Origin: Anas platyrhynchos
Lineage: Eukaryota; Chordata; Aves; Anseriformes; Anatidae
DNA length: 64,000 bases
Direction of reading: 5' to 3'
Assembly (NCBI RefSeq): GCF_047663525.1
Contig: NC_092591.1
Span: 33,327,001 to 33,391,000, forward strand
The notes below the pieces were generated by a model, which worked only from the letters and a program-made list of their open reading frames with translations, had not been told where the DNA came from and ran no database searches. A program made the position numbers and the translations under genes. Below, in pieces: positions 13,670 to 59,200 of the stretch; position 1 is the stretch's first letter; every line of letters begins with the position of its first letter.

Positions 13670-13736
13670 ATGGGTTCCCGGGCGTCTACGCTGCTGCGGG
13701 ATGAGGAGATCGAGGAGATCAAGAAGGAGACGGGCT
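13670..13736 (+). CDS. CHP1: CHP1 coding exon 1
   Basis: Residues 1-22 plus one base. MGSRAST carries the N-myristoylation signal, followed by the acidic helix [15 protein letters not shown]. Donor GGCT|GTGAGT. An upstream in-frame ATG at 13634 would extend the protein, but it would bury the myristoylated Gly and was rejected. Confidence 0.97.
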
Positions 13737-22700: not shown

Positions 22701-25700
22701 CAGAAATACAGGGCATCAGATTTCCTATGAGCTCCAGCCTCAGCCAGGTGAAGTTTTGTCCCAAATGCCTGCAGGAAGCCTGAGTTTATAAATGCATCAT
22801 GCATTCATTTACTTTTATGGCTATTTGAGCTATTTCAATTATAACACTCACTCAGTAATGTGCTCTTAACAAGCAAAAATGGTCTACTGCAATCCTGATA
22901 ATGACAGGACAAATAGATTTGAAACCTGGAGAGTTATTTGTGGTTAATTGTTAATCTGCTATAAAGCAGAACTGGAGGCTGAAATGCTGAGTGTAAATTG
23001 AGGCTTAATACTCAGAAATAGTGATATGCAAGTAGAAGTATGCTTTGAAGTGTTAGGATTTTGTGCTGAATGGAATCTGAGAGCAGTTGCTGCTTCTAGC
23101 TTGTAAATATTAGCATTGAAGTTATGAACTAACAATAATATTTTAGCAACATAGGTTTTCCACATCGGTGCATCTGCTGCTGAAGTCACTAATGCATACT
23201 GTGCCCTTCAGCTGTAGCTGAAAATGCGGCAGTCCTGAAGGGTATTGTAACAAGTTAATCATGTTATGCAGATGGTAATTTTGCCTATTAAAAATAATTC
23301 AGACCTGATCAGAGTAGATGTTCTCTGGACTAGATTAAAAAATACGATCAGGTCACTTCAGTAGAAAGTCAAACAGTTTTGACTCTGTTGGATCAGATGT
23401 ACTACAATTGAGATTAACAGTGCTGTGGTGTAACTAGGTTCAAGAAGTGCTTCAGAATCCATTTACGGTTAGAACATCTTGCTCTGTCTTAGGCTAAACT
23501 AGTAATAAGAGAGGCCAGCAGGTTCCTTTTTCCTGCTTTCTTTAAGATCACAGTATTATAAAATGGTATTGTGCTTAAGTAAACAAGAACAAGCAGATTT
23601 TTTTTCTCTTCCAGATTCTTTAGCGCAAGCTTGTTGCTGATTCATTTAGTGAGCGTAGTTCTTAAAAGTAGCAAGCTCTCCATGACCACATTTGAGACGA
23701 AAACTTCAGAAACAACAGGATTGCATTTCTATTGAAGAGAATAGCCAGTATTTCTTGAGATCAGGCAGGAAGTGCCAAGTTTTGCATCCAGACAAAACAG
23801 GTTGTGGGAGGCCGGGTTGTTTTTTCTTGTGTGTTTTTTTTTTTTTTTTCCACAGCCTTACCATGTTGCTGTTACCTTTGTACTCTAAAGCCTAGATGAT
23901 TATGAAGTATGCCTTGTGCTAGCTGATAAATTGCTATGACGTGCAAAAAACAAACCCTGTTTCCTGAAATACTCACTAAGACATGAGCCTACCTTGGAAA
24001 CACCAAGATTATCTCACTTTCCTGTTAGTGAGATTCTGTTAGGTTGAAAGAAAAAGAATTAGAGCAACTCTAATAATAAAATGAACCTGTGCTCATGTCT
24101 AAAATGTGTTTACATCAGTACAGCTTCTGTCTTCCAGATCAGAAGTTGTAACAATACAAGCATTGCTATGCTTATACTAGCTGTGTACATATAATCATAA
24201 GTAGAAAAGAGAGTGACTGGTGAGAGAGAGCAGTGAGTCTTTGCAATGACCTGGTGACGTTGCATCTAGTATACAGGCCCCTGTCAAAGACTAAATTTAA
24301 ATTTTTAAAATAGGAGTGTTTCTTGGAGGAAGTTAAAATCTGGCATTTGGCATTCATAATGTAGGAAGTTCTTACATGAAATTAAAACAAGTGGATTGCT
24401 GGCAAGTATACTTGGAGAAGCATAGCATGGTATTATCCTAGAATCTGGAATGGGCTAGTCTGGGAAAATCATTCTAACTCAGAGGATGTGGCTCCTAAAT
24501 ATGTATGAAAGAGCTTGCTTTCATTTCAAAGCCATTTCAGAAGCTTTCCTTTCCTTAAATTGAAAACTAGCATCACTTCAGGAAGTTTTCTAGCACAAAG
24601 AATTTAGATGCTAACGTTTTTTGTTTTTAAGCATTTTTTTCCTTTGACTTGAAGACTTTATTATATAGATTTGTTGTATTCTTGCTTTACTTAGTCGTGA
24701 AGACTTCCAGCGGATTCCAGAGCTTGCTATCAATCCATTGGGAGACCGAATTATCAATGCCTTCTTTCCAGAAGGGTGAGTTCTGACTGGATTTGTGAAC
24801 AGTCTCAAAACTTGTACTTTGTCAGAAGCTCTATTAGAAGTGAAATGCTGACAACTAAAACACAGAATTTGAATTTAGTAATAATAGAATACCTCAAATT
24901 TGTCTTGTTGTGTGTTGGCACATTGTTTCCTGTGTTTTCATTCTTCAGTAATAGACTTCCCTACCTCATGAGTTTTGCATGCTTTATTCATTGACAAGAT
25001 CTGGCTGTGTCACTGTTTTCCACTCTTCTTGCTATGCCTCTAAACACTTCTAAAGAAAGTCAAGGGTGTGTATGGACTTTGGTTCTTACAGCAAACTTGT
25101 AGCAATGCTCTTTTATATGAAGCTGCATTGCAATTAATTATATTCTTTACCTTTTGCCTTCTAAGTGTGCCTTTGTTAACAGATCAACTTTTTTTAGTTT
25201 GGATCACGTTTAAGATGTAGCTTACAATGCTTCTAACATAATTCCAAAGAGACAATCAAATTTCCAGTACTGTCTCCCTTCACTGTACGTCTCTAGGTAG
25301 TTCTGTGGAATCTGCTTCTGTTTTTGAACACCTCATTACTGATTTGATGAGGAATGTTTTCTCATCTATTCTTAAAGTCAATACCATACAGGTTCCTGAA
25401 TGGAAAGTAGGAGACCTGGGAAGTACGCACGTAGCTGCTTCCCACACTTTCTGTAGAGAAAAGTGAGCAACTTGTCAGGGAGCAGCATGAGGTGGCTGCC
25501 CCACGGGCAGGAGCCCTAGATGACAGCTTGTAGGGGCAACATAGTCATCAACAGAGGGCACAGCACATGAAAACAAAAAGCAGAGCAGCAGCAGGTCTAG
25601 GGACAGTTGTCACATCAGTGCACTAGTTGCCAGAACACTTTGACAGTGGTGAAGCAAGTCTTGGGTTAGTCCAGGAAATTGCTCTGTAGGCCAGGTTCCA

Positions 25701-28700
25701 GATCAGCAAGACAGGTTGCTGCTCTCAGGCATAGTTGCAGGATAGCTCAGGCAGGGGCAAAAAGTTTGAAGGCTTGAGCTTAAATACAACGTGCAGTCAA
25801 GGAAACATGTAGCTCCCAAAAAGATGTCTTGCTGCTTTTTTCCCCATGCATCATTCTTCACAGCAATATGGTCCCAGGTTACAACTGCATTCTGTCAGAG
25901 CTGGTTTTGAGCACAGGCTGCCAAACCCTGGGGAAGTGCAAGTTAGTTTGCATTGTGTGGGCACTTCAAAACTTCATACTGTTCTATACTGAAATTAAAA
26001 AAGTGTAAGCTGTGTTGAAGCTGACCTGCTAAAATGCTTGTGCAGAGAGGACCAAGTCAACTTCCGTGGATTCATGAGGACACTAGCCCACTTCCGACCC
26101 ATAGAAGATAATGAAAAGAGCAAAGACCAGAATGGACCAGAACCACTGAACAGCCGAAGTAACAAGCTCCACTGTGAGTAATGTGAGCCTTCTTATAAAA
26201 GCAATTCGTTCTTTCCTTTTTCTAGGAAAAGAGTAAAGGGTTTGGGATCTTTTGTGTGGTCTCTTCTTGTGGAATGATATTAAAAAAAAAAAAAACACAT
26301 ATTGTTTTTAAATCCACTTGCAAGCTTGTTCAGAATATCAGTCAACCTATACTTGAATTGGAATCTGATGAAATCAGTTAAATTTTGAGTTATAGGTGTC
26401 TTTCCCTAATGTCTCATAACAAAATGTTTTGAAAAAAAATGCAGTTATTTTGTATTGAGCCACATCCCATACATGAATGGTCTTTTCTGTTTTTCTCCAG
26501 TCTTCTGTATAATACAGCACTCACTGAACAACCTTGGCAACAGTCCTCAGAGCACTTAAAATTTGTCATAAATCTCAGCCAGAACATAGTCAAAGGTAAT
26601 GAACAAAAATGTAAAAATGGTTGGCTCTGAAGTTAAAGGACTGAATATATCTTTGTGGCAATTATACCTCTGTGGCTCAGGGCTTTGAGGAAATAACTCT
26701 AAGTACAGTGCTTTTGAAACTTCTCATACTGAGTACTTAAATAATGTTTTTCTCTTCTTGGCAATAATGTTATTTCCTGTATGTAGGAATAACTTTTTGT
26801 GGAACTGAACATCAGTTGTACAGTGAGTGAAAATTTGGTTAATTCTCTTTTATAGTAGTTATTCATAAATTTTGTTTTCCTAGACAAAAGGAAGGAAAAC
26901 AGTGGCACTTGAATTCAACTGTTCCTCTTTTTTTCCTGTAGTTGCTTTTCGGTTATATGACCTGGATAAAGATGACAAGATTTCTAGGGATGAGCTTCTT
27001 CAGGTAAATAACATGGGGCTGCTTTGGATGATTCCATCATGACCTTCCTTCTTTATCAGTTCTTCATTCTGAAGAGTATAAAAGGTGTTTCAACAGTCTT
27101 AAATTCTTGTAGGAATTTGGTGGCTCTTTGTTATCTCTGGTTTAAGGTTTTAGATATGGTAAGAGACCATAACCTCGTTTGGTAGTCCAGATTGTTTTGT
27201 TAGACTGGGGTGCAAGATTCACATCTTAAAGTGTTAAGCTAAACAAGGTCTAATTTTAAAGGATTCCTGAAAGGTCTTACTGGGAAAAAATGGTTAAATA
27301 TCCAACAGATACACCAAGCCTCCAGAGAGCTACCTTCTGCAACTTCTGAAGGTGCTCCTAACAAGACCTCATAGGGACATTGAGGTGAATGAGGTCATTT
27401 TTCTAGTCTTCTGTGTATTCTCTAAGTAGAATAAAACTTCTTGAAACTGCAGCAGAGGTAATCAAAGTTCATCAGTGGCTGCATGTTTAAACTAGGCTTG
27501 AGCTAGGAGTAATTACATACTACTAATCTTGAAGTAGACACGGCAATTTGTGGTTCCTGATGTAGGACAAGGATTTGCTTTTAACTGCAACTGCCCGCTT
27601 CAATCTGCACAGAAAATGCTTTACTAAATGTAGAAAGTAATGGCTGTTAATCACCTGACTGTATACTTATAAAAATTCCTGTAGGAAGTATTCCAAACAG
27701 CAAATAGTCAAATCTAGAGTGGGTATGTTTTATATGGAAAAATAGACAAAAGCATTGGAATAAAGCATTAATTCCTGGTTCCATAAACTTTCTAATACTC
27801 CTGCGTCTTTGTGCTGCCTAGTGAAAAAGGTGGCTACAGAAGGAAGATGTTCACTGGAAACATTGATGTATCAGGAGAAAATTCTGTCAAGAAATGATTT
27901 CTGTGCTAATCTTCCTCTGTTCTTGCAAGAAGTTATCTGGACAGTATGCATGAGAAAAACAGCATTAATTTTTGTTCCTATATCAACAGCGTCTTTTTTT
28001 TTTTTTTTTTTTAAATCATCTGGGGCCTTCTGTACATTACAGGTGTTACGGATGATGGTTGGTGTAAACATTTCAGACGAACAGCTTGGCAGCATTGCTG
28101 ACAGAACAATCCAGGAAGCTGATCAAGATGGTGATAGTGCCATCTCCTTTGCGGAGTTTGTAAAGGTTGGTAAACTACATTTTTAACAAGGGTAAATGAA
28201 ACAGCTCAGTAATGGGCAAGTCATTCAGGCTTAAATGCAGACAGAACTAGGAAGCTTTTTGAGTATTCTTTCTGCCTACATTTGGCTTATTAGAACAGGT
28301 CATTTATTGTCAAGGTGTTAATAATTAGACCATACATTTCTCCATACTTTAGTGTAAGCTACAGCACTGAATAAATATACTGGAGAATTTTCACACCATG
28401 CTAAGAAGACTTCAGATGCTAGATTCTAAAAGGTATTTTCTACTAGAGTAGGGTGTTCAATGAAGGGTGATGGGGAACTTTAGAGTTACAGGCGGGTAAT
28501 TGTCATGTACTTCCAAAGCCTGCTGCTGGTGAGGTGATGAAATAAGACTTTCAATGCAGCAGTCTATCTAACTTTTCTTTTGCAAGCGCTTCTTTCTACT
28601 CAAATAGCCTGAGAAGCAGCAACTGAGTATTCTGCTGCTGTAACTTCTGCTGATCCATTTTCACTTGTAGATTTTTAACCATTAGTGTATGTCACTAATG

Positions 28701-29664
28701 TGAATTAGAGCCACTAAGTTCCAGGCTCTAGTCCTGTGAATTGCATCTTCTGATAGTAGTCAGAAATATGTAGTAGTAAGGAACCATTATAGAGTCAGTG
28801 GAGAAAGCTGTCCTATAGAGGAGCAATTTCAGCTGCCTGTTGGGATGACATTGATGAGAAGAACCATACTCACCTTGGAAGTGGACAGATGAGATGTGGT
28901 AATAAACAAGTTATGTGTGAAATTCTTATTAGGCATAAGGAAAACTTTTTTTTTGCTGGGGGATGCTCACAGGTGTTGAAAACAGAGCCTCCTTCCTTGG
29001 AGAGATTTAAAACTCAACTGGACAAGGCCTTGAGCAGTGATGTAGCTGGCCCTGCTTTAAGCAGTGGTTGAAGGAGTTGAACTAAAAGACCTCTAGAGGT
29101 CTTTTCAAACTTGAATTACTCTGAGCTCAGAACACTGAAGTCTTCCAAAAATTGTCTGAAGCAGATGATGTCATCTTACCTCAATGTTGATGGCAATTCA
29201 TTGCATGAAGTTGCCGCCCCGATTTTAAAATGATCTCTATTAGTGATGCTGTGATCTTTATTTTAGCTCTTCATTGACTGCTTGTGCCCTTTTTCTCTAG
29301 TCCATTCTTCCTTCTCACCATGCATTCTCACACTATCTAAATGGAATAGTCCAACCCTTTCTGGGCTATTGGCAAAGTGTATCAGTTGCATATTGGTTGA
29401 CAGCTTTCTTCGTGCTGTAATGGCTAAAGTTTCTTTCATCAGGAGGACCTTAGTCCTCAGAGCAAAAAATAGCACTCTAGGAGAAAATGTCATGCCAAAT
29501 CGAAGATACCCCGTGTTTCTGCCAATTTCCTTTATACTGTAGTAAGAAACATGTAGGAGAGAAATATTATGGAAATTAACTGAAATAGCTGTTTCTGGAT
29601 TTCATTGCAGGTTTTGGAGAAGGTGGATGTAGAGCAGAAAATGAGTATTCGTTTTCTTCACTGA
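13670..29664 (+). CDS. CHP1: CHP1, calcineurin B homologous protein 1 (complete)
   Basis: CHP1 is a myristoylated EF-hand protein. It is an obligate cofactor of Na+/H+ exchangers such as NHE1, a partner of GPAT4, and an inhibitor of calcineurin. Seven exons join exactly: 13670-13736, 18371-18443, 24695-24775, 26046-26173, 26942-27003, 28043-28165 and 29611-29664. That is 588 nt and 195 aa, the standard length. Gly2 (MGSRAS) is the myristoylation site. EF1 and EF2 are degenerate. EF3 (D123 to E134, [12 protein letters not shown]) and EF4 (D164 to E175, [12 protein letters not shown]) are canonical calcium loops. The C-terminus is KMSIRFLH. The protein is almost identical to human, with a few conservative changes as I remember it. 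It shares a divergent promoter with EXD1. Confidence 0.98.
13737..18370 (+). other. CHP1 intron 1
   Basis: A 4.6-kb intron. It starts in the CpG island and becomes AT-rich after about 14.0 kb. It contains a pair of diverged direct repeats (about 14818-14890 and 16449-16517). No exon or recognised transposon was seen. Confidence 0.6.
18371..18443 (+). CDS. CHP1: CHP1 coding exon 2
   Basis: 73 nt encoding [20 protein letters not shown] and NGTL, the degenerate first EF-hand. Acceptor CCTTCAG, donor GAG|GTAGGT. Confidence 0.97.
18444..24694 (+). other. CHP1 intron 2
   Basis: A 6.3-kb intron, AT-rich, with T-tracts near 23828. I see no gene, CR1 copy or structured RNA. Confidence 0.55.
24695..24775 (+). 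CDS. CHP1: CHP1 coding exon 3
   Basis: 81 nt encoding [18 protein letters not shown] and IINAFFPE. Acceptor ACTTAG, donor AAGG|GTGAGT. Confidence 0.97.
26046..26173 (+). CDS. CHP1: CHP1 coding exon 4
   Basis: 128 nt encoding [18 protein letters not shown] (second, degenerate EF-hand) and the CHP-specific linker [19 protein letters not shown]. Acceptor TGCAG, donor CACT|GTGAGT. Confidence 0.97.
26942..27003 (+). CDS. CHP1: CHP1 coding exon 5 (EF3)
   Basis: 62 nt encoding [20 protein letters not shown], which holds the canonical calcium loop D123-E134. Acceptor CTGTAG, donor CAG|GTAAAT. Confidence 0.97.
28043..28165 (+). CDS. CHP1: CHP1 coding exon 6 (EF4)
   Basis: 123 nt encoding [20 protein letters not shown] and onward through [17 protein letters not shown], the fourth EF-hand. 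The region 138-147 is a known nuclear-export signal in CHP1. A 19-T tract (27994-28012) lies about 30 nt upstream of the acceptor. Confidence 0.97.
28955..29128 (+). mobile_element. CR1 LINE 3' fragment, sense
   Basis: Contains CTGGACAAGGCCTTGAGCAG, then TGGCCCTGCTTTAAGCAG, GACCTCTAGAGGTCTTTTC and a degraded AATTACTCTGAG end. This is an old 5'-truncated CR1 in CHP1 intron 6. Confidence 0.87.
29611..29664 (+). CDS. CHP1: CHP1 coding exon 7 and stop
   Basis: 54 nt encoding [17 protein letters not shown] and TGA (29662-29664). Acceptor ATTGCAG. Confidence 0.97.
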   Translation, partial: VLEKVDVEQKMSIRFLH

Positions 29665-33000: not shown

Positions 33001-33376
33001 AGCGCCTGGCGGCCCCTTTAAATCCCCTCAGAGGTCAGCGGAGGATTCTCCTCCGGCCGGCCCCGCCCGCGCGGCTGCAGCCACTCGCTTGGCAGCCGTG
33101 TGCCCGCCGCGCGGCCAATCGGAGGGGGCAGCCTCGCGGAGGGGTGGCGATCCTCCGCGATGGACGGCGCTGCCGACCAATCAGCCGCGAAGCCTGGCGG
33201 GCGACGCGCGGGAGCGGCGCCCGATAGGCTGGCGGCCGAGGGGGCGGGCCCGGCGTCGCCTGGGCGCCGCGAGCCCCCCGCCGGGTGGCCGGGGTGAGGA
33301 GGGGAAGATGGCGGCGTGAGCGCAGCGGGCGGAGCGGCCGGGGCCGGCCGGGCCCCGCGGCTCGGGCCGCGCTCAG
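33001..33376 (+). promoter_or_regulatory. OIP5-AS1 CpG-island promoter and first exon
   Basis: A CpG island covers about 32.75-33.72 kb. Two CCAAT boxes lie at 33115-33119 and 33177-33181. A YY1 motif (AAGATGGCGGC, 33305-33315) suggests the start of transcription lies just upstream, near 33290. No TATA box. The first exon would end at 33376 at a good donor (CTCAG|GTGAGC). Confidence 0.75.
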
Positions 33377-36208
33377 GTGAGCGCCCGCCGCCGCCCGACG
33401 GGCCGGGCGGGGGCAGCGGGCGCGGCCGGGCGGCTCCCGGCCTCCCGCTGCGCTGGGGGCCCGGGCTGCGAGCGGGGCCGGCCGCCGCCCTCACCCCTCA
33501 GGGGCCGGCCGGGAGGGCCGCGGGGCTGCGGCGCGCTGAGGGGAGCGGGGGCAGCGCGGGGCGGCTGCCGGGGCTCTCCCTGAGGCAGCGCCGGCACGCC
33601 CGGCTCTGGGGCGCCCTGAGGTGCTCGGGCAGCGTGCTCGGAGTGCCCTGCGCCACGGAGCGGTGCCGGGCGGGTTCGTGTTGTGAGCGGGGCTCCCTCC
33701 TGGAACCGGAGGGGTCAATCCAGCGTGGGAGTCCGTGTGCTTTATGTCTTAGAGCAGCTCTTGAGAATTCTGGTTCATCGCGTTATCCTGAGTGGCTGCG
33801 TTTTCAGTGTGAATGTCAGGTAAAAGTTAAAAAAAATATATAATTAAAGCACCTGAACGAGAAGCACAGCTTCAGATCCTGAAGAGACGTGGTCTGTTAT
33901 CCTACATAACCGATAAAGAAGGTGTTTGTAACTGATAAAATAACGCAAAAGGAACGTAACAAGTGTAGTTGTGGCAACTACTTCTGAAAGCAGTAGCCAC
34001 TTATGAGAAAAATTTCTAAAGGAATATTTTACCGTGTGCTATATTACATACCTATTCCTAGTGCTATGTTATTCACCTGGTAATAGCAGCTCGGGGGCAA
34101 CACAGCATTAAGGCACAGTGTGCTGCTGCTGGTGAATGCCTACTTGTACAGGTCTGCATGTGAGCTATTAGAATATGCCAAGGGATTTGCTTTTGGCATG
34201 TTACATACAAAGATAACTCTGCTTTATGCTATAGTTAGAAGAAGAATAAGCTGTCAACTGTCTTTCATGTGAAGTTGCACAGTATTTTTAGCAGTAAGTA
34301 AATACACTTGGATTAATATTTATTCTTAATTGCTTTGGATGCTTAAGAACTGTAAGAATTAGCATCAAAAAATAACCAGAGTTTTCTGTTACCCTGGCTA
34401 TGTCAAACCAACTCTGTTCACTGCTTTAAAATTCTGCTCACAGTGCTGTGAGCCTGTGCAATACAGAGATTTGCAGGAGTAAGCTGTGTCTCTTACGATG
34501 GTAACCTCTCATCTCAAGGGTGTCAAAAAGCAGGGGCCAACTAAGGCTAAGCATTCTGCCTGAATCCGTGAAGAGTCTGGAGTCTCTCTTGAACACCTCC
34601 CACGTTCATTCTTAAAAACTAGAAACGGAACGAGGTTTGAAAGGAGTCTTGATGTGTTGGTGGTTAGCTGAATGCAAGATACAGAGGCCCACACAGTCTT
34701 TGGAGGATTGATTTTAAAAAAAAAAAAAAAACCTCTCTAAAATGGGATGTGCAGGTAGGGATGTTTCTTTGCTTAAACAGTGTTCAAAGAGCCCTTTGGT
34801 GTGTGTATTGTGGAATAGGAATCTCAGCTGTAAAATGGTCGTCTCCTGCTGTAGGAAGTATTATTATTATTCCTACCCTATTGTGCTAAAAGCATAGGAA
34901 ATATGCATTGGAAACCTCATAGGAGGAGAGGGTGAATTTGTTTAAAATAAAAAGTGAAACAAAACAGGTTACAGTGTGTTAGGCTCATAATCTCATACGC
35001 AATGCCCAAGACATCTATCTGCCAGCCAGGCATCATAGCAGAGGTGTTTAAGCCATGTGTCCAGCAGTCAGGGGCCCCTTGCAGAGGACAAGGGACATCA
35101 GCGTGTCCTCTGGACTCCCAGGTTGGTGACTTCTGTGTTCCCGATAGGCCCTCGTTTACACTGTTGGAGGTGACAGTGACCTGTGTCTCCACCCTGTCCC
35201 TCTCTGTCCTTTGTATCCAGGTCTGTGCATCTTCTAAAATTGCAGGGGGACGTGCTGGGGTTCAGATGAATTGCTATGTGGGGTCCTGGCAACACAAGCC
35301 CTTCTGAGAGTCCTGTCCCTCTTCTGTGTCTCGTTTGGAGCTTCCATGCCCAGGCACTCCCTTTCTTTCTCCAGTTCTACTACAGTTTGCTCCAGTGCTG
35401 CATAGAGTGGATTTAGATACCTTTTTAAAAGTAGAGAGAGAGGTGGGGGCAAGTGACAGCGTGGAGAGGTGACAATGGGAAATTTTTGGAACCATTTTGG
35501 AAAGCCAGGTCCGTTGGATACCTTCAAACTGTGTTAGGGGTGTGGTGAAACTTAGTAGCATAGTTGCATACTTTTCATTGTAGTATCCCTTCAATTTCTC
35601 ATGTGCTGGTTGTGTCAGTAGATTGACTTTATTTCCCCCCTAAAGTTCATGGAAATTAGCCTATAGTTACTGTAGAGCAGAAGAAATATGACTGCCCTAT
35701 AGGTCAAAACAAGACTTTAGTTATTTTGAAGGTGTAGAATGAGTGAAAGAAAAGCTAACTATTCAAAGATTGGCACTGGGAATTGTCTCATTTCCATCAG
35801 CCTGATATGTAAGCTTATGTGTGATGTATAACTGATAATTATCAAATTAATTTTTTTGTGAATTGTTTGGTTCCTTAATGTCTTGAGGTCTCATAGTGCT
35901 TGTCAGGTTCTTGGGGGAGGACTTGAATTGGGTGGGTGAGAACTGACGACAAGAGGATGGAACAAGAAGATCTTGAATCTTTGCTAGTTAGGTGTGACTC
36001 ACTTGACCATCCTTTTCCTTATTCTGAAAGAGGAGCGTGGCTGTAAACATTTGAAAAGTAACATCAACATGTTTAATGTAGACTATCTGACAATGTTAGC
36101 TGGTTCCCAGAAAGTATAGATAATCTTCTGTGCCTTGTGCATGTAATGATCTGTTATCTGAAGAGCTTCCTAGATACAAATTTAATTTGTTAATCTCTTT
36201 CTCTCTAG

Positions 36209-37675: not shown

Positions 37676-37922
37676 CAGGGAGCATAGTGTTAGGACAAGG
37701 GGTATATTCAGAAGAAATTCTTTACTCAGAGGGTGGTGAGGCACAGGAACAGGTTGCCCAGAGAAGCTGTGGCTGCCCCATCCCTGAAGGTGTTCCAGGC
37801 CAGGCTGGATGGGGCTTTTGGCAACCTGGTCTGGTGGGAGGTGTCCCTGCCCATGGCAGCGGGGTTGGAACCAGATGATCTTTAAGGTTTCTTCCAATCC
37901 AAACCATTTGATGATTCTATGT
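37676..37922 (+). mobile_element. CR1 LINE 3' end, sense
   Basis: Contains AGTGTTAGGACAAGGGG, GAAATTCTTTACTCAGAGGG, GAACAGGTTGCCCAGAGAAG, GGTGTCCCTGCCCATGGCAG and the terminal GATGATTCTATG. It is a well-preserved 3' end lying in an OIP5-AS1 intron. Confidence 0.94.
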
Positions 37923-40900: not shown

Positions 40901-41056
40901 ACAACCGTACCTTTCCAGCCAGCTTCTTTATAAAAGTGCTGCGTTAGGAAATGCTGCCTCAGCCTACCTACTTTTTCTTGCTCCACTTTTTCTCTATGTT
41001 GGTTGGAAATCTTCCCATGTGAAAGATTACAAAAACAAGGGGCATGTGCAATAGAT

Positions 41057-41083
41057 CATATATATATACATATATATATTTTA
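41057..41083. repeat. AT-rich microsatellite
   Basis: Interrupted (AT)n run, ATCATATATATATACATATA then more AT, about 40 bp upstream of the miR-7 site. Confidence 0.85.
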
Positions 41084-41120
41084 ATACTTGTGGACAAAAT
41101 GATGTTACAAGTTGTTTGAA

Positions 41121-41146
41121 AACAACAAAATCACCAATGTCTTCCA
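41121..41146 (+). promoter_or_regulatory. miR-7 target-directed degradation site of Cyrano
   Basis: AACAACAAAATCAC (41121-41134) is complementary to bases 11-24 of miR-7. CAAT (41135-41138) forms the central mismatch. GTCTTCCA (41139-41146) pairs with the seed, bases 1-8. Perfect seed and 3' pairing around a short internal loop is the published architecture of the deeply conserved Cyrano site, which leads to miRNA decay rather than slicing. Confidence 0.97.
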
Positions 41147-44100
41147 TTTTGAGATGTGTATAGTTCCATAAGCATTAGTGCTTTGTAGCAAACAGTAGTG
41201 CCATGTTAGGATCAGTGCATGAGCCTAGTAGTATTTTTACAATTTCAGAGTGACAAATTTATTAATAAGCAGTGATGATAATGTAATTAACAATAGAAAG
41301 GATACAGTAGAAATATCACAAACATGGTCTAAATATGCAGTATCCTCCCTGTGACAGTGGTAATGCTATCTTTAGAAAGTGAATGCATTCACTTAATGGG
41401 CTTCATAGAGTCATAGTTAACTTTGTTTTTAGTATTTCTGTCCAACTGCAATAGTAAACTAGTGTATGTAAGCGTCCAGAATTCTCATCTCTGTCACCAG
41501 TGGTTCTTTTCATTTCAGTCTTTGTTGAAGGTGTTTTCTTCTATGAGCAGCATTTTCCATTTAATTACTACCCATCCTACGATATACTCAGAATTAAGAA
41601 TGTGATAAAGAATTTGTGTGTGTTTTGTGCACATCACTACTACCTTAATATTATTTACAAAATCTGTTAAGTAGAAAAAAAAAAAAAACACAACACATCC
41701 AATTACATAATTATTAAAACCAGTTAAACATTATCCTTTTCATCTACTAAGTTAGTTACTGGTTGCAAAATGCTTTTCTTCCAATTATAAGTAGAATACT
41801 TTTGTCCGTTATTGCAGGAATGGAAAACCTTTTTTTTTTTTTTTTTCTGAAGTCCGATTGAATCTTTTAACACCTTTGGTGGATCCTGCATTTACACACA
41901 TCTTAATAAGAGAGAATATAATAAGATTAAGGGCTGTTGAAAACCAACATTGCAGACTGCATCTGTTCAGCAGGCTATATCTAGTCATAGATTCCCCACC
42001 CCTGTATTGTTGAGAATTCAATATCCTGTGTTTTGGGTAACTTCCAGTATTGCTTTCCAGCTCTAATCTCAAATTTAATAACTTACGTCTCTCCCTCTGC
42101 TTTTTTCAGACGGAAAGTTTAGACCAGGAAATGTTCAAATGATTTAGCACGCAATGGGCAGCTTGGACTGGTGAAATAAGAGACTGGTATAATTCCTGAG
42201 ATGAGTGATGCTCTGTGGATGGCATTCTCTCATTTCCTAGGAAAAAATAAGTCTTATTTGATACCAGTGTTGCTCTTCACACATTTCTTTTACAAGAACA
42301 AAATTCTCTGTCACTTTAGAGAGGATACTGCATCTTTTTTCCCTGAGACCTGCCTGTAAATGGCCACTAGGAGGAGGGAGGGAATGGGTAGCTTGGTTTT
42401 GTAATTTTAATAGGATGTATCTCTAAAGTAATTAATCAAGTAGCATGTTCTTTGGTGCAAAACCAGTAATCCTTGCAGAGTTAATGTATGTAACAAACCC
42501 CCCACCCCGACCCTCTGCATATAATAAGTTTCCAAGAAAACTGGGTGGTTGGGCCATTTACAGCAGAGCTCTGGGGGACCTGTGCTCAGAGTTAGGTTCA
42601 ATTCTGAACAGAAGTAGCTGTACCATTGAATAAAGTAGTTTAGTGCTTGGGAGAATCAATTGAAAAATACCTCTGAAACTGGAATGCAAAATAGCACAGT
42701 ATGTAGGGGGAAGAATCCCTGATGCAAACAAAGCCATAAGATGATTTAATAAGAAAATAGAACTTTAGTAGCAATAACTGTTTTGCATGTGATAGTAAAT
42801 AACTTGCATTAGCAAGACTGTACAGTAGAGTAGGTGGGTAATAACCAAATAAGTTTGTGGCGCTCTGTGCTGCAGGGAGTTGCATGAAAAGTCTCTTTTC
42901 CTAAGATGGGTGAATTCCTCTTAATGTTCCTCTCATTGGAGGGAATTTGGCACTTGAATACTTAGTTAATGAACCTGATATTAAAAAACAAACAAACTGT
43001 TTAGCTTTGTCACACATCTGAAGCACTGTCAGTGAGTGCTGGGGGAAGCGCAGACAGTTCTTTCTGAAAGGGTAGCTTGTTTCCCTTTTTTATAGTCTAG
43101 CACTTGCTCAGTTTTTCTGAGGGGAAACTAAACCCTTCCAAATACTGGACTGTGGAAAGAACTTGGTTCTGAAGTTAGAATGCATTTTATTGCAGGTGGT
43201 ACTTATTTTTGTTTAAAAAGAACAACCTGAAATAGCGACAGGCCTTTAAAAAAAAAAAAATTAGATAATATTTGACACTGAAAACATCTGTTCATCCCAA
43301 AGGACAATTGTAGGATACTAAAAATGTTACCCTGCAGCAAAAATAATTTTAGACTTGCTAAACACTCTGTTTCAAGCCATTGATTTCTGTTAATGCCTGA
43401 AGTTTTGCAGAGACAAGTATGGTGAAGCCTCCGATAACAGAAAGGGATATTGATCTACAGCTGTAGCCTCTGCACCAGCAAAGTATCTGCGATCAAAGGG
43501 TTACATAGCAGAGCCCCAGAAGTGCTAAAATGTCCATAGTTGATGCTGTTTTCCGTGCAGATAGGTGGTCTGTAGAGACAGCATGGCCCAGCAGATAATA
43601 GTGTGTTCCTAACAGAAGTGTTACATCAGAAGTTTAGATCTATCTGGCTAGATTTCTTCTAGAAAGTTGAAGGAGTTTGGAATGTAACTTCCAGCTGAAG
43701 GGAAGCCTCTGATGTTCTGAAATTCCATAGGTGAAGCCTTCTGGCTCTTTGTAAGTTGATAGTGGGACTAGTAAGGGCTGTGAGTGTTTCTACAGCATAA
43801 TGTAATTAAGATAAGCATGAGCATATCTAAATTAAGTGTAGGCTAATATGTGTATGAAAAGCTAACTGATCTGGAAAATTATAATCAGCTTAAATTCCAG
43901 CTATTGCATTATTGATAAACTTGGAAGCTGGCCACAGGGAACCTTAATTTGATTGTGATCTGATTACATTAAATAAATTATAACTTTCTTGTAGTCTGTG
44001 GTCAGCAAGTACATTTACATAATGAATTAATAATGAAAACATGGTCACGTTCAGACTTCAAAAGTATGAACTTTGTGGCTGAGTAGAAATTTTCAAGGCT

Positions 44101-47100: not shown

Positions 47101-47978
47101 ATTCTGATTTTTTTTTTCCAAAAGGCAGCTTGCTTTTATATCTATGCATCTTTGAGGATTTCAAGATAAGATTTTATTCTTTTGACGCTGTAAAGAGGAA
47201 CTGTTTAAAAATGAACTTGGAAACTCTGCACCTGTATACAAATTTTTTTAGCAATAAAGCAGCACAGGCTGAGAATGCACTAAAACCTGGTGTGTCATTT
47301 GTTCAACAGAGAGATTAACCAAGGTACAATGCACCGTGTCTTCATTGAGGTGCAAACTGCTTCCGCTTCTGAGATGTACTTGCTGTGCCTTTGACAAAGC
47401 TTAACAATTTGAGCTAAACTTGCATATGTTGAATATCAGCTTTGGATCCAGCTTTTTCAGCAATTTTCAGACACAAGTCTATGACTTCCCCGAAGGCACC
47501 TGAAGAAAAATTGGCACTCCACTCAAGATGGGCAACTCACAAATAGAAGCTTCAAAGGTTGTTTTAGATGGTAGCAGGAAGCTTTTGTTGCTTGCAAGGT
47601 AGACCACCTAAAAGGAGTAACTCTCAAAACTGTTTCACATATATGTGGATTGTTTATAGTTTTGGCAGCTCAAATTCCTTTGGTGGTTGGCATTTCACAA
47701 CCTACAGGGAGGCACAACTTTCCTTGCTGCTGAAAGCAGTTCTGGGAAGTGCTGTAACACAGCAGCAAGATGCCACCTCATGAGGACTACGCTGAAGAAG
47801 CCATGGCTCCCAGCACCATCAGCTTTCCAAAACCTCTTACGAGATTGCTGACCCTTATGTGAGCTTATAAAAGATTCACTGTGTGATTGCTACTTCTGTA
47901 ACCTGCTATACCACCTTCATTTGTTCCATTTTCTGCTTGCTTTTCTCAGAGAAGACAGCTGCTCGTTAGCTCACATAG

Positions 47979-47984
47979 AATAAA
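47979..47984 (+). terminator. Candidate OIP5-AS1 poly(A) signal
   Basis: AATAAA, chosen because it gives a terminal exon of about 9 kb like the human one. Other AATAAA hexamers occur earlier, near 42629, 45195, 46135 and 47260, so alternative ends are possible. Confidence 0.35.
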
Positions 47985-50273: not shown

Positions 50274-50441
50274 TCAAAATGGCCTATTATTTTTGGTCTT
50301 GACTATTGCATATCCTGGCATTAGGGCAACTGCATCTGATGCAGAGCCATAGTTTTGTGCCATGTTCTTTTGCTTCAATTCCTCCGTCTTCTTTATCAGC
50401 AATTCTAGGCGCATGTGGACCATCACAAGCTTTTCTTTCAG
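50274..50441 (-). CDS. OIP5: OIP5 coding exon 5 and stop
   Basis: 168 nt encoding LKEKLVMVHMRLELLIKKTE and a tail ending KTKNNRPF, then TGA (50276-50274). The first half is the conserved coiled coil. The tail after about residue 208 is longer than human and shows no similarity I recognise. Confidence 0.87.
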   Translation of the reverse strand: MKEKLVMVHMRLELLIKKTEELKQKNMAQNYGSASDAVALMPGYAIVKTKNNRPF

Positions 50442-52842
50442 CTAGAAAAAAAAAAGTACTAGTAAAACTAGAGAAAAATGTTATTCTAACACTGGATCTT
50501 TGAACAATCCGCCTATCTGTTATGATAACACACTTGAGGATGACAAAACTTAAGTAATGTTGTGGGCCCATTTTCATGCTTAGAAAGGAAACCAAAATAA
50601 ATAAATGAACAAAAGGAACAAGTAAGCATATAAACACCCAACGCATTGGCTGTCTCCTACACACAGTAACTGTATTTGAACTATGGGACAAACAATTTAC
50701 TAAGTTATCAACTAACCATATTATATAATAGAACAACCAATTTAAATAGCAAAAAAGAAGAGAGGATCTTGTATCGTCTCTGAAACTACAACTTGATGTT
50801 GTTGTGCTGTTTTGAGTTTACATAGCTGTAAATACAACACTGCTAGAATCCTTTTCAAGTTAACAACAGAGTATTACATTTTTTTATTATTATCATCATT
50901 CAATGGTGACTTTTCAATTCCAGGGACAGCACAAGTGGTAATATTTAGAATCATTTAGAAAAACATTATTTTTGTTTTCAAAATGTAAAGTCCCATTCCC
51001 TCATGACAGCACTGAAGTAGCACAGAACATATGTATTCACTAAGAAATAACCTTTTGTCAAAAAGTTAGATAGAACTTGGTAAGTTCTAAGCATTGCAAA
51101 TACGGTAATTGTATTCATATTTTTGGCTAATATCCAAAAATAGTATTTCTTGCTATTTTCCATACAAAGTCATGTAGAAACCTTACTTTCCCCAGTTGTT
51201 CCTTTAGGGTCAAAGCAGGAAAATTCACCTTAGATGCTTCTATTGTTATATTGTTTTTTAAAAGATAGCTAGAAAACAAATAGGGAAAGGGGAAAAAAAA
51301 CAACAAGAACAACAATTAAAAAGCTCACACAATTGTATTCCTTGTTTATAAAGATTATTTAACAAGATTTTAAAACAGATATAAAATTATTCCCTGAAGT
51401 ACTCCATTGATTACGAAAATATTAAAAAAACAAACAAACAAAAAAACAACAATATGTTACTTTCAAATCATAAGATCCCCTCATTACCAGCTAAACATAA
51501 TTTACAGTTTCTATAATGAAGTCCATTTATCATGGAACTGTTTTGATATCTTACATTAGTTAAATGGATCTAGAACTGAAGGAGATTTCAGCACTGGAAA
51601 CAACTAAATTTAAACTTTGATGTAATGTGAGGACATTCAAAAAGTTTAAGGCAAATCACATGGAGTCATGCCAAAACAAACGATGTAAACACAGAGAATA
51701 TTAAAATCCCACATCAACGCTCTCAGTCAAAAGTAAACTGCAGACTCGTCGTACATCCTGCTTTAAAAACTTGCAAATTCCCATGAAATCCCTGACCATC
51801 AACATCCAGGACACTCACCAGAGGATGCTCTCCTTGAAGAAACAAAATAAGCCTCGGAGATGAGCCAGGTTACTGAACGCAGAATAAAGAATGAAGCCCA
51901 CCATCGAGCCACACAACCGACAGTATAATGCATTGTAGGCACTAAAAGGAAAAATGGAAAAATAATGTTATTAAACAAGTTATGAAACCATGGATACTGG
52001 GGAGATGTCACAGGACATCAAATCAAAATTTCATCGGGACAGTAAGACAGAATATAGTGCTTTATGCTTAAATAATACAGAGTGTACGAATATGGGAAGT
52101 TGGGCATGTTGTCTAAGAAAATCTGTGTAATAAGTGAAATTGCAATTAGAAAGAAAAATCCACAGCGCATCGTCTCAAAATGAGTTAGGTTGTAAAGATC
52201 AAACGCGATAATGCGGTGAAATAGATTTAAGTTGTAAAGATCAGGTGTGGTGCGTGGTGAAATCGGGGCGATGCCTGCACCTCTGACAGGCGATGTGAAA
52301 GCTCCCCCTGCCAGCGCCGAGCACCGCCTCGTGAGGAGGAGGCAAACAACCGGGTTTTTACCGACAGCGCTGTTTTATCGTGACAGAAAGCAGCAAGAAG
52401 AGACCCGGCGAGGCGGCCGCGCTACGCACCAGCCCAGCAGGGCTCCCTCCAGGCCCACCAGCAGCGCGTCCTCCCAGGCCACGTCCCCGGTGACTCCTGA
52501 GGAAAGAAGAGAGACGCGGGAGCACCGCGCCCTGCCCTGCCCTGCCCGCCCCGCTCCGCCCCGGCACTGACTGAGGCAGGCGAGGAGCCCGAGCCCCCGC
52601 TCCTCCTGCGCGCACAGGTGCAACGAGTCCGCCAGCACCGCCCGGCACCCGCGGCACTGGAACACGGCGCAGTCCTCGGGACGCAGCCCCCGGCGCCGCA
52701 GCGAAGCCTCCCCTGGGGATGGGGATGGGGCCGGGGCCGGGGCCGGAGGCGCTGGCGGGGCGGGGGGGGCCGGCGGGGGCCGCTCCGCCGTGATGACGCC
52801 GCCGAGCAGCGGCTCCTGCAGCAGCCGCCGCCGCACCGCCAT
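50274..52842 (-). CDS. OIP5: OIP5 / MIS18B, Mis18 complex subunit beta (complete)
   Basis: OIP5 (Mis18-beta) pairs with MIS18A and M18BP1 to license CENP-A loading at centromeres in late mitosis and G1. Five exons join in phase: 52842-52572, 52496-52430, 51941-51819, 51268-51187 and 50441-50274, giving 236 aa (human 229). The Mis18 (Yippee-like) domain carries its two zinc-binding CxxC pairs, C63/C66 (VFQCRGCRAVLADS) and C120/C123 (YCRLCGSMVGF). The C-terminal helix (LKEKLVMVHMRLELLIKK) is the coiled coil that joins the complex. Residues 22-43 are a Pro/Ala/Ser repeat not present in the human protein as I remember it. An open frame continues upstream to an ATG at 53085, but I chose MAVRRR: its ATG has a strong AAGATGG context and sits in a YY1 motif. 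Confidence 0.96.
51187..51268 (-). CDS. OIP5: OIP5 coding exon 4
   Basis: 82 nt encoding CYLLKNNITIEASKVNFPAL and TLKEQLGK. Matches human CYLLKTKAIVNASEM. Acceptor TTCTAG, donor AAA|GTAAGG. Confidence 0.93.
51819..51941 (-). CDS. OIP5: OIP5 coding exon 3 (second CxxC)
   Basis: 123 nt encoding AYNALYCRLCGSMVGFILYS and AFSNLAHLRGLFCFFKESIL. Second zinc-binding pair at C120/C123. Acceptor TTTTAG, donor CTG|GTGAGT. Confidence 0.95.
52430..52496 (-). CDS. OIP5: OIP5 coding exon 2
   Basis: 67 nt encoding VTGDVAWEDALLVGLEGALL and G, aligned to human VTNNVVLEAPFLVGIEGSLKG. Acceptor CCTCAG, donor CTG|GTGCGT. Confidence 0.92.
52572..52842 (-). CDS. OIP5: OIP5 coding exon 1
   Basis: 271 nt encoding residues 1-90 plus one base: MAVRRRLLQEPLLGG, the Pro/Ala/Ser tract, then LRPEDCAVFQCRGCRAVLAD with the first CxxC. 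The donor is A|GTCAGT at 52571; the GTGCCG four bases further on breaks the frame into exon 2. Confidence 0.9.
52715..52742 (+). repeat. Five GGGG runs (G-quadruplex candidate) in OIP5 exon 1
   Basis: GGGG at 52715, 52721, 52727, 52733 and 52739, each separated by two bases (AT, AT, CC, CC). The plus strand is the template strand for OIP5. On the coding strand it encodes the Pro/Ala/Ser repeat. Confidence 0.92.
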
Positions 52843-53183: not shown

Positions 53184-53276
53184 ATGGCGCTCCCCGCGCT
53201 GCAGCACCTCGAGTCCCTCAAATACGCGGAGCTCCAGCAGCTCGCCAAGGCTGTCGGCCTCAAGGCCAACCTCCGG
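53184..53276 (+). CDS. NUSAP1: NUSAP1 coding exon 1 (SAP domain)
   Basis: 93 nt encoding [20 protein letters not shown] and [11 protein letters not shown]. Human has LDSLKYSDLQNLAKSLGLRA. Donor CGG|GTGAGG. Confidence 0.95.
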
Positions 53277-56200
53277 GTGAGGCGGGGGGCGCCGCACGGC
53301 TGGGGTGGGGGGGCTGAGCCGCGGGTGTAGGCGAGGGGCGGGCAGGGGCAGCGCTGAGGGGGCTGGGGGGGGGACGGTTGGTGCCTCCTAAGCTTCGTGA
53401 GGCGGCGGTGCCCCGCCTGAGGGGTGTTTGGCAGTGCTGTCGTTAATACTCGTCAGCTTTCGGTTGGCTCTGACGTATTTGGGCAATAAGTCTCTGGAGG
53501 TCGCTCCCCGCTGAGCTGTTCTGTTGTTGTTGTTGAATGTACGCGAGTGGTGCGGTGTGTGCAGGGTGAGCAAGGCACGGGCAGCTCCTGCCGAAGCTTG
53601 GTGCGATTTTAATTCCTGCTCAGCTGGGCAGCGCTGCTGAAACGGGCTCGTTCAGCTGTGAACGGTTACCTCTCCTTTTGCTCAGATGGAGCAGAAGGAA
53701 CCCGGCCAGGGAGACTTGTCTTTGTGCCCCCGTGGAAAATACACGTTGCATGTTTACCTGGGGTCTTAAATACGCTCTTCAATTAGAATTGTCGAATCTT
53801 AGGACATCTTAAGTTGGAAGGAACCCCAAGGAATATCGAATTCACTTCCTGGCTGGAGGAGAACCACCCAAAAATCAGACCACGTGTCTGAGACTGTTGT
53901 CCAAACAGTTCTTGTACCTGGTGGGTGTGGTGCCATGATCACTGCTCTGAGGAGCCTGTTCTGGTGCCCAACCACCCTCTTGGTGAAGATTTTCCTTATA
54001 TCCACCCTGACCCTCCCCTTCCCAGCTCCATGCCGTTCCCTCGGGTCCTGTTGCTGTCATGAGAGCAGAGCTCAGCGCCTGCCCCTCTGCTCCCCTCGTG
54101 AGGGAGCTGCAGGCTGTCAGGAAGCCTCCCCTCAGCCTCCGCTGTCCTAGGTTCAACAAGCCTAGTGACTTCAGCTGCTCCTACATTTTGCCATTTAGAC
54201 CCTTCACTGCCTTTGTAGCCCTCCTTTGGACACTAATAGTTTTACGTCTTTCTTATATTGTGTTACTCATACACGCACACAATACTCAAAGAGAGGCTTT
54301 GAGTAGAGCCAAAGAGAGAGAGCAGAGTGAGACAGTTGCTTCCCTCCAAGCATGCCTTAAGCATTCTCTTGGATTCAGCAAATATTCTATTTATTTGTAG
54401 GATTGGTTTGTAGACACTAGTTGGGTTTATGCAGTTCTTGTTTGGTGACTTAATGCAATGCTTGGTTTGTTTGTTGTTTTGATTTCTCTTCAGGGAGACA
54501 AACTGTTGAAAGCACTGAAGCAACACTTTCAAGGAATAAAAGAAGAAAGTGAAAATACGGTAATAGATGATAAAACAGCCATTCTTTTTCAGAAAGAAAG
54601 ATTTAACTTTGTAACTAGTCTAGCACAGCATATAATGAACATTGGTTTTAGCATGATGCAAATGGTAATAAAAAAACCCCTTCTTTTTAAATAGTGCCTT
54701 TAGTTTAATGCGCTTGCACTGCTAGAAACAGCTGTGCGAATACTTGAAGTGGCCTACTATATGGCTGAAAGCTGGCTCCCTTCCAGCTGTTAATTTAATG
54801 ATGTATTTTCTAGCCCTTCCACCTGTTAAAATTAACAAGGTATTTTTAGCATGCATACAAAATTATTCCCTATGAACAGTAATGTTTACATTCCATTGAA
54901 TGAATCTTAATTTTTCCTGTTTATCTCCAGACACTAGTCCTTTCATTTAGGCATGCAAAATGAATTAAAATACTTACATGCTGTACTGACTAATCTCAAA
55001 GCATTTTATATATACTACAGTTTACTTACGTTGACATAACAAAAGCAATACAACTGTGATGTTTACTTTCCATGTATTGTTTTTTTCAAGATTTCTGTGA
55101 ACTAAATTATTTCATTGTGTGTTTTTTTTTTTTTTTACTTTTGGTTAAAGAAGTTGGTAACCACTTCTTCTAAACTAACTATTTTTAAATATTTCACTTA
55201 TAACTTGCCTCTAAAAATCGTGAGGAGATGGTGTAATCTTAGCTTATTTTTAACTAGCATGGAAAAGTCTCCCTCTTACCTCACCCTCTTTCCTCTCCTT
55301 ATGTGTGTACCTTTTTATGTGATAATCTTTACAAAATTGGGAAGGGCTGCCGCGTCATTTCAGTCAGTCTCAAATATTATTTGTTTTTATTTTTTATAGT
55401 CTCTGACTGAAAAGAAATACAGTTTCATTCTGTAGCATTTTAAGGCTGTAAAACAGCTGGTGTTAAGGAATTTAGATACTGCCCTTTTTCTAATTACAGT
55501 GCTACTTAAATGTGTACTACTGTGTGAAATGCGTTTTCCAATGGTAATGTTGAAGCTGTCTCTTTGGAATATCTGATGTATATCAGATATGTTACAAGTC
55601 ATGGTACTTCTCTGATACAGGATGCTGAAAAAAGTGCATCTGCTTCCATGAACACTGAATTGAGCTGTCAGAAAGAATTTAAACCTGATCCAGTGTGTTT
55701 TGTCACAAAAAGATCTAAAGAAAAGAAAGCAACCAGAAAAAAGAAGAACTCCAGTGAGGAAATTAAAACCAAGGAAGAAACTACAGGGCTCTCTGCTGAG
55801 AAAGAGGTGACTTGTATTGCATGGCTTTGTGTGTGTTTGTGTGGGTGTTCCCAGTAAATGATAAGTGAAGCATGCTTGTTTCATTCTACTACCATATTAA
55901 TAGGTAACACCTGAGATTTTGTATGCAGATGTACTAGTGCTATTAGATTAATTTAGTCTACCATGTGCTATTCCATAACAAACAGAGATAACTTATGTCA
56001 TTAGTACAAGAAAATAAATTAAATTCCTCAGAGAGATACCATCCCAAACACTGGATGTAGGATTGCTTTCACTGGTTCATCATGGTTTCTGTCTGAACAT
56101 TAGACTGCTTGCACAATTTATCTAAAATGAAGCACTTGGCATTTTTTGATATAGAAAAGATTCACAGAAACTGGATGATTGCCCAAACCTTTTTTTTTAT

Positions 56201-59200
56201 TCTCGTGGCTGTCAGTGTTTTAATGCAAGTGTATGTATATATATATTTGTGGGTTGTATGACTGATGGAGGAGAGATTTCAGGGTGATATGGGGATAGAA
56301 TTATTTTTCTCTAGTATAATGTGCAAGTGGTGGGTGAGCTCTGAACTATGTGAAAAACATAACAGTACAGTTAGAGGGAAATGGGAAAATGAGAGGTGTT
56401 AATCTTTCAGCAGCATGTCTAAATAAGCAAAACCGTGCAGTAACCAAAGTTACAGAAATAAAAAGCAACATAGCCAGTGAATTTATTTTTACTTGCAGAT
56501 AGTTGTACTTTGTCAACAGAGGCAATTTATGCTAAAATGTTAGAACTGTGTGGGTAAAAGCTTTCTAATATAGATCTGTTTGTGCAATAACAGAATAAGT
56601 ATTTCCTAGGTTAATTCAGGTTGGACTTCAGAAAGCCTCTTGCTCTATCTTCCCCTGAAAGCAGGGTCAGCTATAAAGTTGGGGCTTTATCTAATCCAGT
56701 CTTGTAAACTTCTCAGGATGGAGACTATACAACTTCTCTGTGCAGCTTATTCCACTAACCAACTGCTCTTAGAATGAAATCTTTTCCTTATATCCACTTG
56801 TAACAAACAGTTTAAGTGAAGTATGCTTAACTGCAGGAACATTCTGAAATGAAAGAAAATGAAGTGCCCCATGGTGAGCAAGAAAAGGGACAGATGGTAT
56901 TCCAAAATGAGGAACCAGTAATTAAAAAGAGAGCTATTGAGAATCCAGGGATGGCTACTGGGGAGAAGGAACAACCAGAGAAGACTTCTACTAAAGGTAC
57001 TAGAGAGGAATGTGAGTAATAACTTCCATAAATGTAACTTTAGTCATTCATAGTAATTCAAATACATTTGCTGGTTATTTTGTTGTCTGCAAAGATTTTC
57101 TTTGGTGACATTTCTGGTGATCTGAACCTTTTTGAGGATGCCAGAGAAGAATCTGACATTTGGGCCTGTTTATTTAACACATCATAAAACAACTCCACAA
57201 ACTCTCCAGTCTGGTAGTTCTGCTAATTTTGACTTTGGAAATCTGGACCAATTAAATATTTTCAGTTAAGGCGTTCTTGATGGTCTGAGTGTATCTAATT
57301 CTTGTACTTTGTTTAGGATCTGTGCTTTCTGGAATACCCTTAAGATGCCACTTTTTAAAGGAACTGAGTAGCAAGAAGGGGAGAGTTCCCTTCCTTGTGC
57401 TTCCTTCTTTTTCTACTCACAAATGGGTTTTATCACTTTCTTTGTGGGAGTAATATGGGTATTAAAAGGCATAAAGACAGCCCTTATTAGTTTGTTTGCC
57501 AAACGTTATCTGTGTGTGTTATGGTGGACCACTTTTATATCTGGTAGCTTTTTTAGACCTTCAAACGTGATGCTGACAAAATATGGACTCATTTCCCGCT
57601 CTTTTGTGCATGCAGCTGACCTGAAGAAGAAATAAGCGTCTTCCCAATTTTATTTGACATATTCACAATAAATTTTCAGATACATGCCATTATTTTCTCC
57701 TGTTAGACTAGATGTAAATAGTCATTGAGATGTATTAAGGATAACATAACCTTGCTGTTCAATAGTACTTAAAGAACATTCTTACTGGAGGCTATTTCTA
57801 AAGCAGTTTAAAAATTACAGAAATGAGAGTTTTCAATTAAGTTTCTTATAAAAGCAGATGCAATAAAATGTGTAGAGGATGCTTTGGCTGAGGCAACATT
57901 ATAATGAATTTGACCCTGACATTTGGTATAGTGCCTGTCTCTTCCCATAACCATAAGTATCCATATTGCTTTGACTTTTTTTTTAACAGTAATTTCAGAC
58001 AGCAAGAGAGCTGTGTAACAGAAAAATACTATTGCTACATTTAGTACAGTTTTCTGTATGTTGGCTTTATGGTGTGTTTATGCTAAAAAGCAAGCTACAG
58101 GCAAGATTAAAAAAAATAAAATAAAGCAGACCTGAGGGCAGAGATAATCAAAATAGCTTAGGTTCTTGTGCCTATATTTAAGGCAATGTCAGAAAAGCTG
58201 GTCAAAATATGTTTATTTTTACAGGTATAAAAACTTCAAATATTAGGCTCTAAATATTTTTAGATAAAAGACCAGTGGGTTGTACTTGTTTACCACAAGC
58301 AGAGTTTGCTTGTTAACTCCTTCTGTAAAATACTTTACTACTGAAAGTACTGTCAGGCTATTTTCTGTCAGACTCATTCTGGGTTTGTAGTATGTCATGA
58401 CATGTTGTTACTGACATATGATTTAAAAAGCTTTTGAGAGTCTTAGGATGTACCTATTCCAATTGAGATTGTGATTTCTAAAAACCTAAAGCTGCTCTGA
58501 GGAGGTAAGGTATATTATGGAACCAAGGTTTTAAAGATATTTAAAGTATTTCCTATTAGTTCTAATCATTATGTCTAATCTTATTGTGCCAGGTGATATT
58601 CATCCTGTGGGAGGGAAGATCCCTATACATGTAGGCCGCGCATCGAGGTCTGGGAAAACAGGAATGAAAGCTACTACACCAAGTAAGAGAGTCTACCACC
58701 TTTGTAAATAGAACATATTGCCTCTGTGTGAAGGGAGACTTGACTTACGGGTTTTACAAACCAGACTTCCATTTTTTGCTTGAACCAAGAGACCACCTTC
58801 TCTTTAAAAAGCGAACAAATGAAAATGCCAGAAGGTTACGTGGAGGTACAGCTTCCCACTTGTAAATTCACAGCAGTAAATGATTTAAGTATAGGTTATA
58901 AAACTGGCTTATGGAGTGCTTTGGTGTCTTCTGGATATTATACTTGCATTCACAGTTTTCATAACAAAGAGTAGGAAGACATGCTATGACGCCTGCATAT
59001 TTAGTTCTCATTTTATAGTAATATCGCAAGTGTAGCATTTATAAGTTAGCTCACTTTCATTACTTCATAAAACACTATAAAAAACATTAACTTAAAATGG
59101 TTGGATTACTAGAAAATTGAAGCTTTGGGCTTTCTTCCTTTGTAGAATTCTCTAGAGCAGGTACCACGTAACTATGTAGTTGAAGTAGATGCTGTCTGCA

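Follow-up and report, generated by a model that had tools for sequence, protein, structure and literature searches.

The window analysed here, that is, the whole stretch of 64,000 nt, corresponds to C5:33327001-33391000 of the 1.26-Gb genome (42 contigs) of the duck Anas platyrhynchos. Around a miR-7 site of the type that triggers target-directed miRNA degradation (TDMD), the gene order is CHP1 >, putative Cyrano >, < OIP5 and NUSAP1 > (arrowheads give the direction), with the neighbours placed by tblastn using human protein sequences. Published work is cited below from those parts of each paper that were available. The features are as follows.

13670..29661, plus strand: CHP1, upstream neighbour, with 7 coding exons and an intact 195-aa frame
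33304..33315, plus strand: TISU-like element GAAGATGGCGGC with ATGGCG and a 3-aa ORF (M-A-A-stop), in a GC-rich stretch near the putative Cyrano start
33376..33377, plus strand: putative end of exon 1 (last exon base 33376), donor CAG/GTGAGC, by a crude consensus score
37763..37888, minus strand: copy of a CR1-like repeat within the putative Cyrano gene, one member of an inverted repeat pair
41045..41053, plus strand: TGTGCAATA, miR-25/92 seed-match element
41121..41146, plus strand: miR-7 TDMD-type site, exact match to the 14+4+8 pattern
41121-41134, plus strand: 3'-pairing block AACAACAAAATCAC, which pairs over 14 bases with the 3' end of miR-7
41135-41138, plus strand: target loop CAAT, 4 nt
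41139-41146, plus strand: 8mer match GTCTTCCA to the miR-7 seed
41157..41163, plus strand: TGTATAG, Pumilio recognition element
41216..41222, plus strand: TGCATGA, Rbfox motif
47142..47148, plus strand: CTATGCA, miR-153 seed-match element, by letter match
47251..47258, plus strand: GCAATAAA, poly(A) signal / miR-137 element
50376..52686, minus strand: OIP5 coding exons as matched (tblastn, Yippee-Mis18), convergent downstream neighbour
53184..63481, plus strand: NUSAP1 exons as matched (tblastn, Pfam NUSAP), divergent from OIP5

The joined CHP1 exons matched the solved CHP1 protein (PDB 2e30, deposited as calcium-binding protein p22) with an E value of 2.9e-123. One of the two scanned OIP5 exons exceeded the Pfam Yippee-Mis18 cut-off and the other fell just below it, and four of the five scanned NUSAP1 exons exceeded the NUSAP cut-off, the first exon giving only a sub-threshold SAP match. 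The putative lncRNA gene was thus found where a Cyrano orthologue would be expected, between CHP1 and OIP5 and convergent with OIP5. The order in human is the same (CHP1 / OIP5-AS1 / OIP5 / NUSAP1). The zebrafish cyrano gene also adjoins oip5 (PMC6347452, as far as its available text goes). The probable OIP5 stop codon lies near 50274, as read from one frame, leaving about 3 kb (47259-50274) between it and the likely poly(A) signal of Cyrano. Below the OIP5 stop, the closest AATAAA/ATTAAA word on the minus strand is at 49481. Given this gap and the position of that word, Cyrano and OIP5 may converge without overlap in this genome. The predicted 3' end of the duck copy thus stops some 3 kb before the last coding exon of OIP5 is reached, and an antisense overlap is only putative.

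On the plus strand, positions 41121-41146 read AACAACAAAATCAC-CAAT-GTCTTCCA, without a mismatch to the expected pattern. The sequence-only reading had described an intact site that pairs with 8 seed-region and 14 3' bases of miR-7, which held in full, around a "4-nt central mismatch", which needs correcting: the duplex contains an asymmetric internal loop in which 4 target nucleotides face 2 of miR-7. Pairing of the site with the 24-nt miR-7 gave 8 seed pairs, 14 3' pairs and a computed energy of -29.5 kcal/mol. The best non-overlapping alternative for miR-7, at about 9.0 kb and outside the gene, reached -22.4 in a scan of 36-nt windows of the plus strand taken every 6 nt, and among 30 shuffled versions of miR-7 scanned along the gene the best value was -25.8, at a step coarser than that used for the real miR-7. 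The site combines an 8mer seed match, extensive 3' pairing and a central loop within 3-11 nt, the pairing features by which TDMD triggers are recognised in the available part of PMC10899785.

Several analyses indicated that the match did not arise by chance, and we rejected this explanation. The 14+4+8 pattern had no other match in the window, even when up to 3 mismatches were tolerated; the mean over 100 shuffles was 0.01 matches, and a first-order Markov estimate put the expectation at about 3e-8 for 128 kb of strand. The exact pattern had 0 matches in 257 Gb of prokaryotic DNA, and the pattern with a loop of 2-8 nt had 0 matches in viral contigs, both in collections that may lack records close to the genome of the window. 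Uniqueness was assessed for the pattern in the window and for a 251-bp core (41000-41250) in the whole genome, where it had one match, the window itself. A protein-coding explanation was also disfavoured. The site is crossed by six stop-to-stop ORFs with a length of 15 aa or more (maximum 68 aa), and the three scanned gave no Pfam match above the cut-off, only one weak sub-threshold hit to DUF2456. The statement that nothing nearby encodes protein was likewise supported, as the nearest recognised coding exons belong to CHP1 (ending at 29661) and OIP5 (about 50.3-50.4 kb). A scan of the window against Rfam returned no family at gathering scores.

To the extent that its text was available, the LncLOOM study (PMC7798263) compared Cyrano in 18 species with usable RNA-seq, chicken included, and reported nine elements that are conserved in every species but the shark. 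Eight of these nine could be tested as defined there, the two miR-7 blocks by pairing and the other six by their letters, and all eight were present on the plus strand and in order. The TGTGCAATA element lies 67 nt upstream of the site, the Pumilio element 10 nt downstream of it, the Rbfox motif 52 nt past the Pumilio element and the poly(A) element 102 nt past the miR-153 element; the available part of the same study places the miR-25/92 element about 60 nt from the site, separates the Pumilio and Rbfox elements by about 55 nt, and puts about 100 nt between the miR-153 element and the poly(A) signal. Counted on both strands of the window, the short words are individually common (TGTATAG 12, Rbfox motif 30, CTATGCA 8, TGTGCAATA 4 and GCAATAAA 4), and the 12-letter TISU match GAAGATGGCGGC occurs once. 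Their clustering is rare: on both strands, only anchors at about 41.1 kb had at least two of three neighbours (TGTGCAATA, TGTATAG and Rbfox), with distance windows chosen after the elements had been seen. GCAATAAA at 47251..47258 likely marks the 3' end of Cyrano, and the putative gene most likely spans about 33.3-47.3 kb on the plus strand. The score behind the exon 1 donor is crude, and several real CHP1 sites also scored low with it.

Site, synteny and all eight testable elements in order strongly support the identity of this sequence as the OIP5-AS1/Cyrano miR-7 site, so the sequence-only reading had named the locus correctly. The duck copy shares with known Cyrano (human, mouse, chicken and fish) the OIP5 neighbour, the elements in their order and close spacings, and the 14+8 pairing and the 4-nt loop are common to both sites. 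It differs in carrying a CR1-like insertion, and the comparison with known Cyrano was made by published description; the full letters of the human, mouse and zebrafish sites were not found in the literature, among the matches listed. It should be noted that conservation of Cyrano beyond mammals, chicken included, is already reported in the available part of PMC7798263, and survival of the site in duck was therefore to be expected.

A non-functional relic or a retrocopy that has lost its transcription could also retain such a site, and copies of the Cyrano region do occur elsewhere in the human and mouse genomes (PMC8250186, available part). In duck, by contrast, the core from 41000 to 41250 matched only once in the genome, and for this reason we rejected a retrocopy. 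In addition, the synteny, the promoter-side TISU element, the poly(A) signal and the sequence between them are all retained, which makes a relic extremely unlikely.

The block might instead have been kept for another reason, such as Pumilio or Rbfox binding or RNA structure, with the miR-7 match being secondary. The Pumilio and Rbfox elements indeed follow the site within 80 nt, and a cloverleaf structure has been proposed for human Cyrano RNA (cited in PMC8250186, available part). However, the site is complementary to the miR-7 3' region over all 14 nt and includes a full 8mer, and according to the available text of PMC8250186 and PMC10370758, covariation analyses have too little power to back a conserved Cyrano structure. 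The predicted local fold around the site was ordinary (z-score of only -1.16; 28 of 200 shuffles folded as well), and the predicted accessibility of the seed match was average (probability unpaired 0.018, the 44th percentile along the unspliced gene), so a special RNA structure or accessibility at the site was unsupported. We therefore consider preservation for such a reason highly unlikely and continue with the reading as a Cyrano miR-7 site. Part of the 3'-pairing block lies inside a small predicted hairpin at 41111-41126, GTTGTTTGAAAACAAC, whose 5' arm duplicates the miR-7 3' end sequence. This hairpin would have to open before 3' pairing. The ordinary fold, the average accessibility and the hairpin speak against a TDMD function of the site. 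Such stems are frequent in the gene, about 2.9 per kb (40 in about 14 kb, a count inflated by AT repeats and overlaps), and thus the hairpin alone is not significant.

The cognate miRNA is encoded in the genome that carries the site. The mature miR-7 22-mer had four exact genome matches, each within a full-length mir-7 precursor (Rfam RF00053; 91.3, 90.7, 81.7 and 72.5 bits). All four loci encode an identical 24-nt mature sequence that forms the perfect 8+14 duplex with the site, at -29.5 kcal/mol in each case. ZSWIM8 is the ubiquitin-ligase subunit needed for TDMD, and its exons were present as far as the query, a 405-aa part of the human protein, covers. This query had eleven matches, of which nine were collinear on one contig (C6) with 80-94% identity. 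Three of the nine contained a stop codon, which is most simply explained by a match running past an exon end. Local re-alignment of six C6 loci showed near-identity in the SWIM zinc finger and the sequence that follows it; the lower identity in some alignments is due to their overrunning the exon ends. The two further matches, on other contigs and with 53-54% identity, fit ZSWIM8 paralogues.

On the basis of these results, the locus is very probably the orthologous Cyrano (OIP5-AS1) lncRNA gene, with a site that would act as a TDMD trigger for miR-7. The Cyrano transcript would bind miR-7-loaded AGO through the 8mer seed match and the 14 3' pairs, the duplex would bend at the 4-nt loop, and the pairing would draw the miR-7 3' end from the PAZ pocket; ZSWIM8-CUL3 could then ubiquitylate AGO, leading to the destruction of miR-7. 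The available part of PMC13083262 describes such a course for CYRANO: when it pairs, the 3' end of miR-7 is released from PAZ and AGO2 is displayed to a ZSWIM8 dimer. In the same source, the duplex bends at the wild-type human loop of 4 nt (LL4), altered loop lengths reduce ZSWIM8 binding and polyubiquitylation, and about 25 nt of flank on each side helps without sequence specificity. According to the available text of a review (PMC10899785), Cyrano has a strong seed site with 14-nt 3' pairing and causes more than 98% loss of miR-7 in some mouse tissues. Since the duck site has the same pairing lengths, the same loop length and ample flank, it should by homology act as a TDMD trigger. The sequence-only reading had gone further and argued that TDMD also operates in this lineage. 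The four miR-7 genes with a matching mature sequence and the ZSWIM8 exons make this likelier, and from the DNA we infer transcription, splicing, AGO binding and miR-7 decay; the claim thus stands as an expectation rather than a demonstration. In summary of this point, the site is real and correctly identified, and its function is most likely that known from mammals.

The same pairing would also retain miR-7, and in the available part of a review (PMC6175985) Cyrano is said to have been proposed earlier as a miR-7 decoy. If it worked as such a sponge, miR-7 would be titrated without being degraded. However, the putative gene has one 8mer miR-7 site, all other seed matches in 33-47.4 kb being 6- or 7-mers, and a single 8mer site makes a poor sponge. 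Moreover, TDMD has this architecture of 14-nt 3' pairing and a 4-nt loop, and ZSWIM8 exons are present. Titration alone therefore seems improbable, and degradation remains the preferred reading. Other known triggers, Nrep/libra for miR-29b and HSUR1 for miR-27, likewise combine a seed match with extensive 3' pairing around a loop, as far as the sources available in part describe them; they differ in miRNA, gene and pairing lengths and do not belong to the Cyrano family.

In the available parts of PMC6347452 and PMC6633201, zebrafish cyrano mutants lacking the site show no overt phenotype, with miR-7 levels not reported there, and removal of the conserved region raises the remaining transcript (PMC6633201). 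Cyrano knockout mice look normal as well, yet their miR-7 is sharply increased (PMC6175985, available part), and thus the absence of a phenotype is no argument against TDMD. For birds, the available text of PMC7530283 reports chicken myoblasts with the same miR-7 sequence, in which miR-7 falls on differentiation in culture and rises in muscle in vivo. These data neither support nor refute a role of Cyrano. A review that covers ZSWIM8, chicken and Cyrano describes no bird Cyrano experiment in its available parts, and none of the listed matches for TDMD in birds had a title on the subject.

What the analysis adds is the finding that one bird genome carries the site together with miR-7 genes and, over the part tested, ZSWIM8. 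In mammals, Cyrano protects CDR1as. The available text of PMC10899785 describes this circular RNA as eutherian-specific, and any role of bird Cyrano must therefore lie elsewhere. With the tested parts of the pathway, including the loop length of the trigger, encoded together, birds offer a clean test of whether this potent TDMD axis predates mammals.

Two of the miR-7 genes (L003 on contig C34 and L004 on C35, contigs of 16 Mb and 86 Mb) adjoin exons resembling the C-terminal part of HNRNPK, as judged with an HNRNPK query. Their flanks share three aligned stretches (about 2.2 kb in total) with 74-80% identity, which suggests Z and W gametologs. With two miR-7 genes on Z/W-like contigs, the gene dose of miR-7 may be unequal between the sexes. 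It is conceivable, and in our view quite improbable, that Cyrano-driven decay also buffers sex-linked miR-7 dosage in birds; if true, an autosomal catalytic trigger could even out the miR-7 dose between sexes.

The CR1-like copy in the putative gene (37763-37888) forms an inverted pair with a copy at 8606-8731 (126 nt, 86% complementary). We take the pair to be CR1-like; avian CR1 letter patterns gave only one weak match. In the left 12 kb, none of ten selected ORFs of 66-98 aa on the minus strand exceeded a Pfam cut-off, and one gave a weak sub-threshold hit to DUF2920. Region 1-13400, to the left of the CHP1 promoter, may be an intron or UTR of a neighbouring gene. Its GC skew is negative, opposite to that on the CHP1 side. 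Finally, the first CHP1 intron contains a direct repeat (14790-14876 and 16421-16507) of 87 nt with 72% identity.
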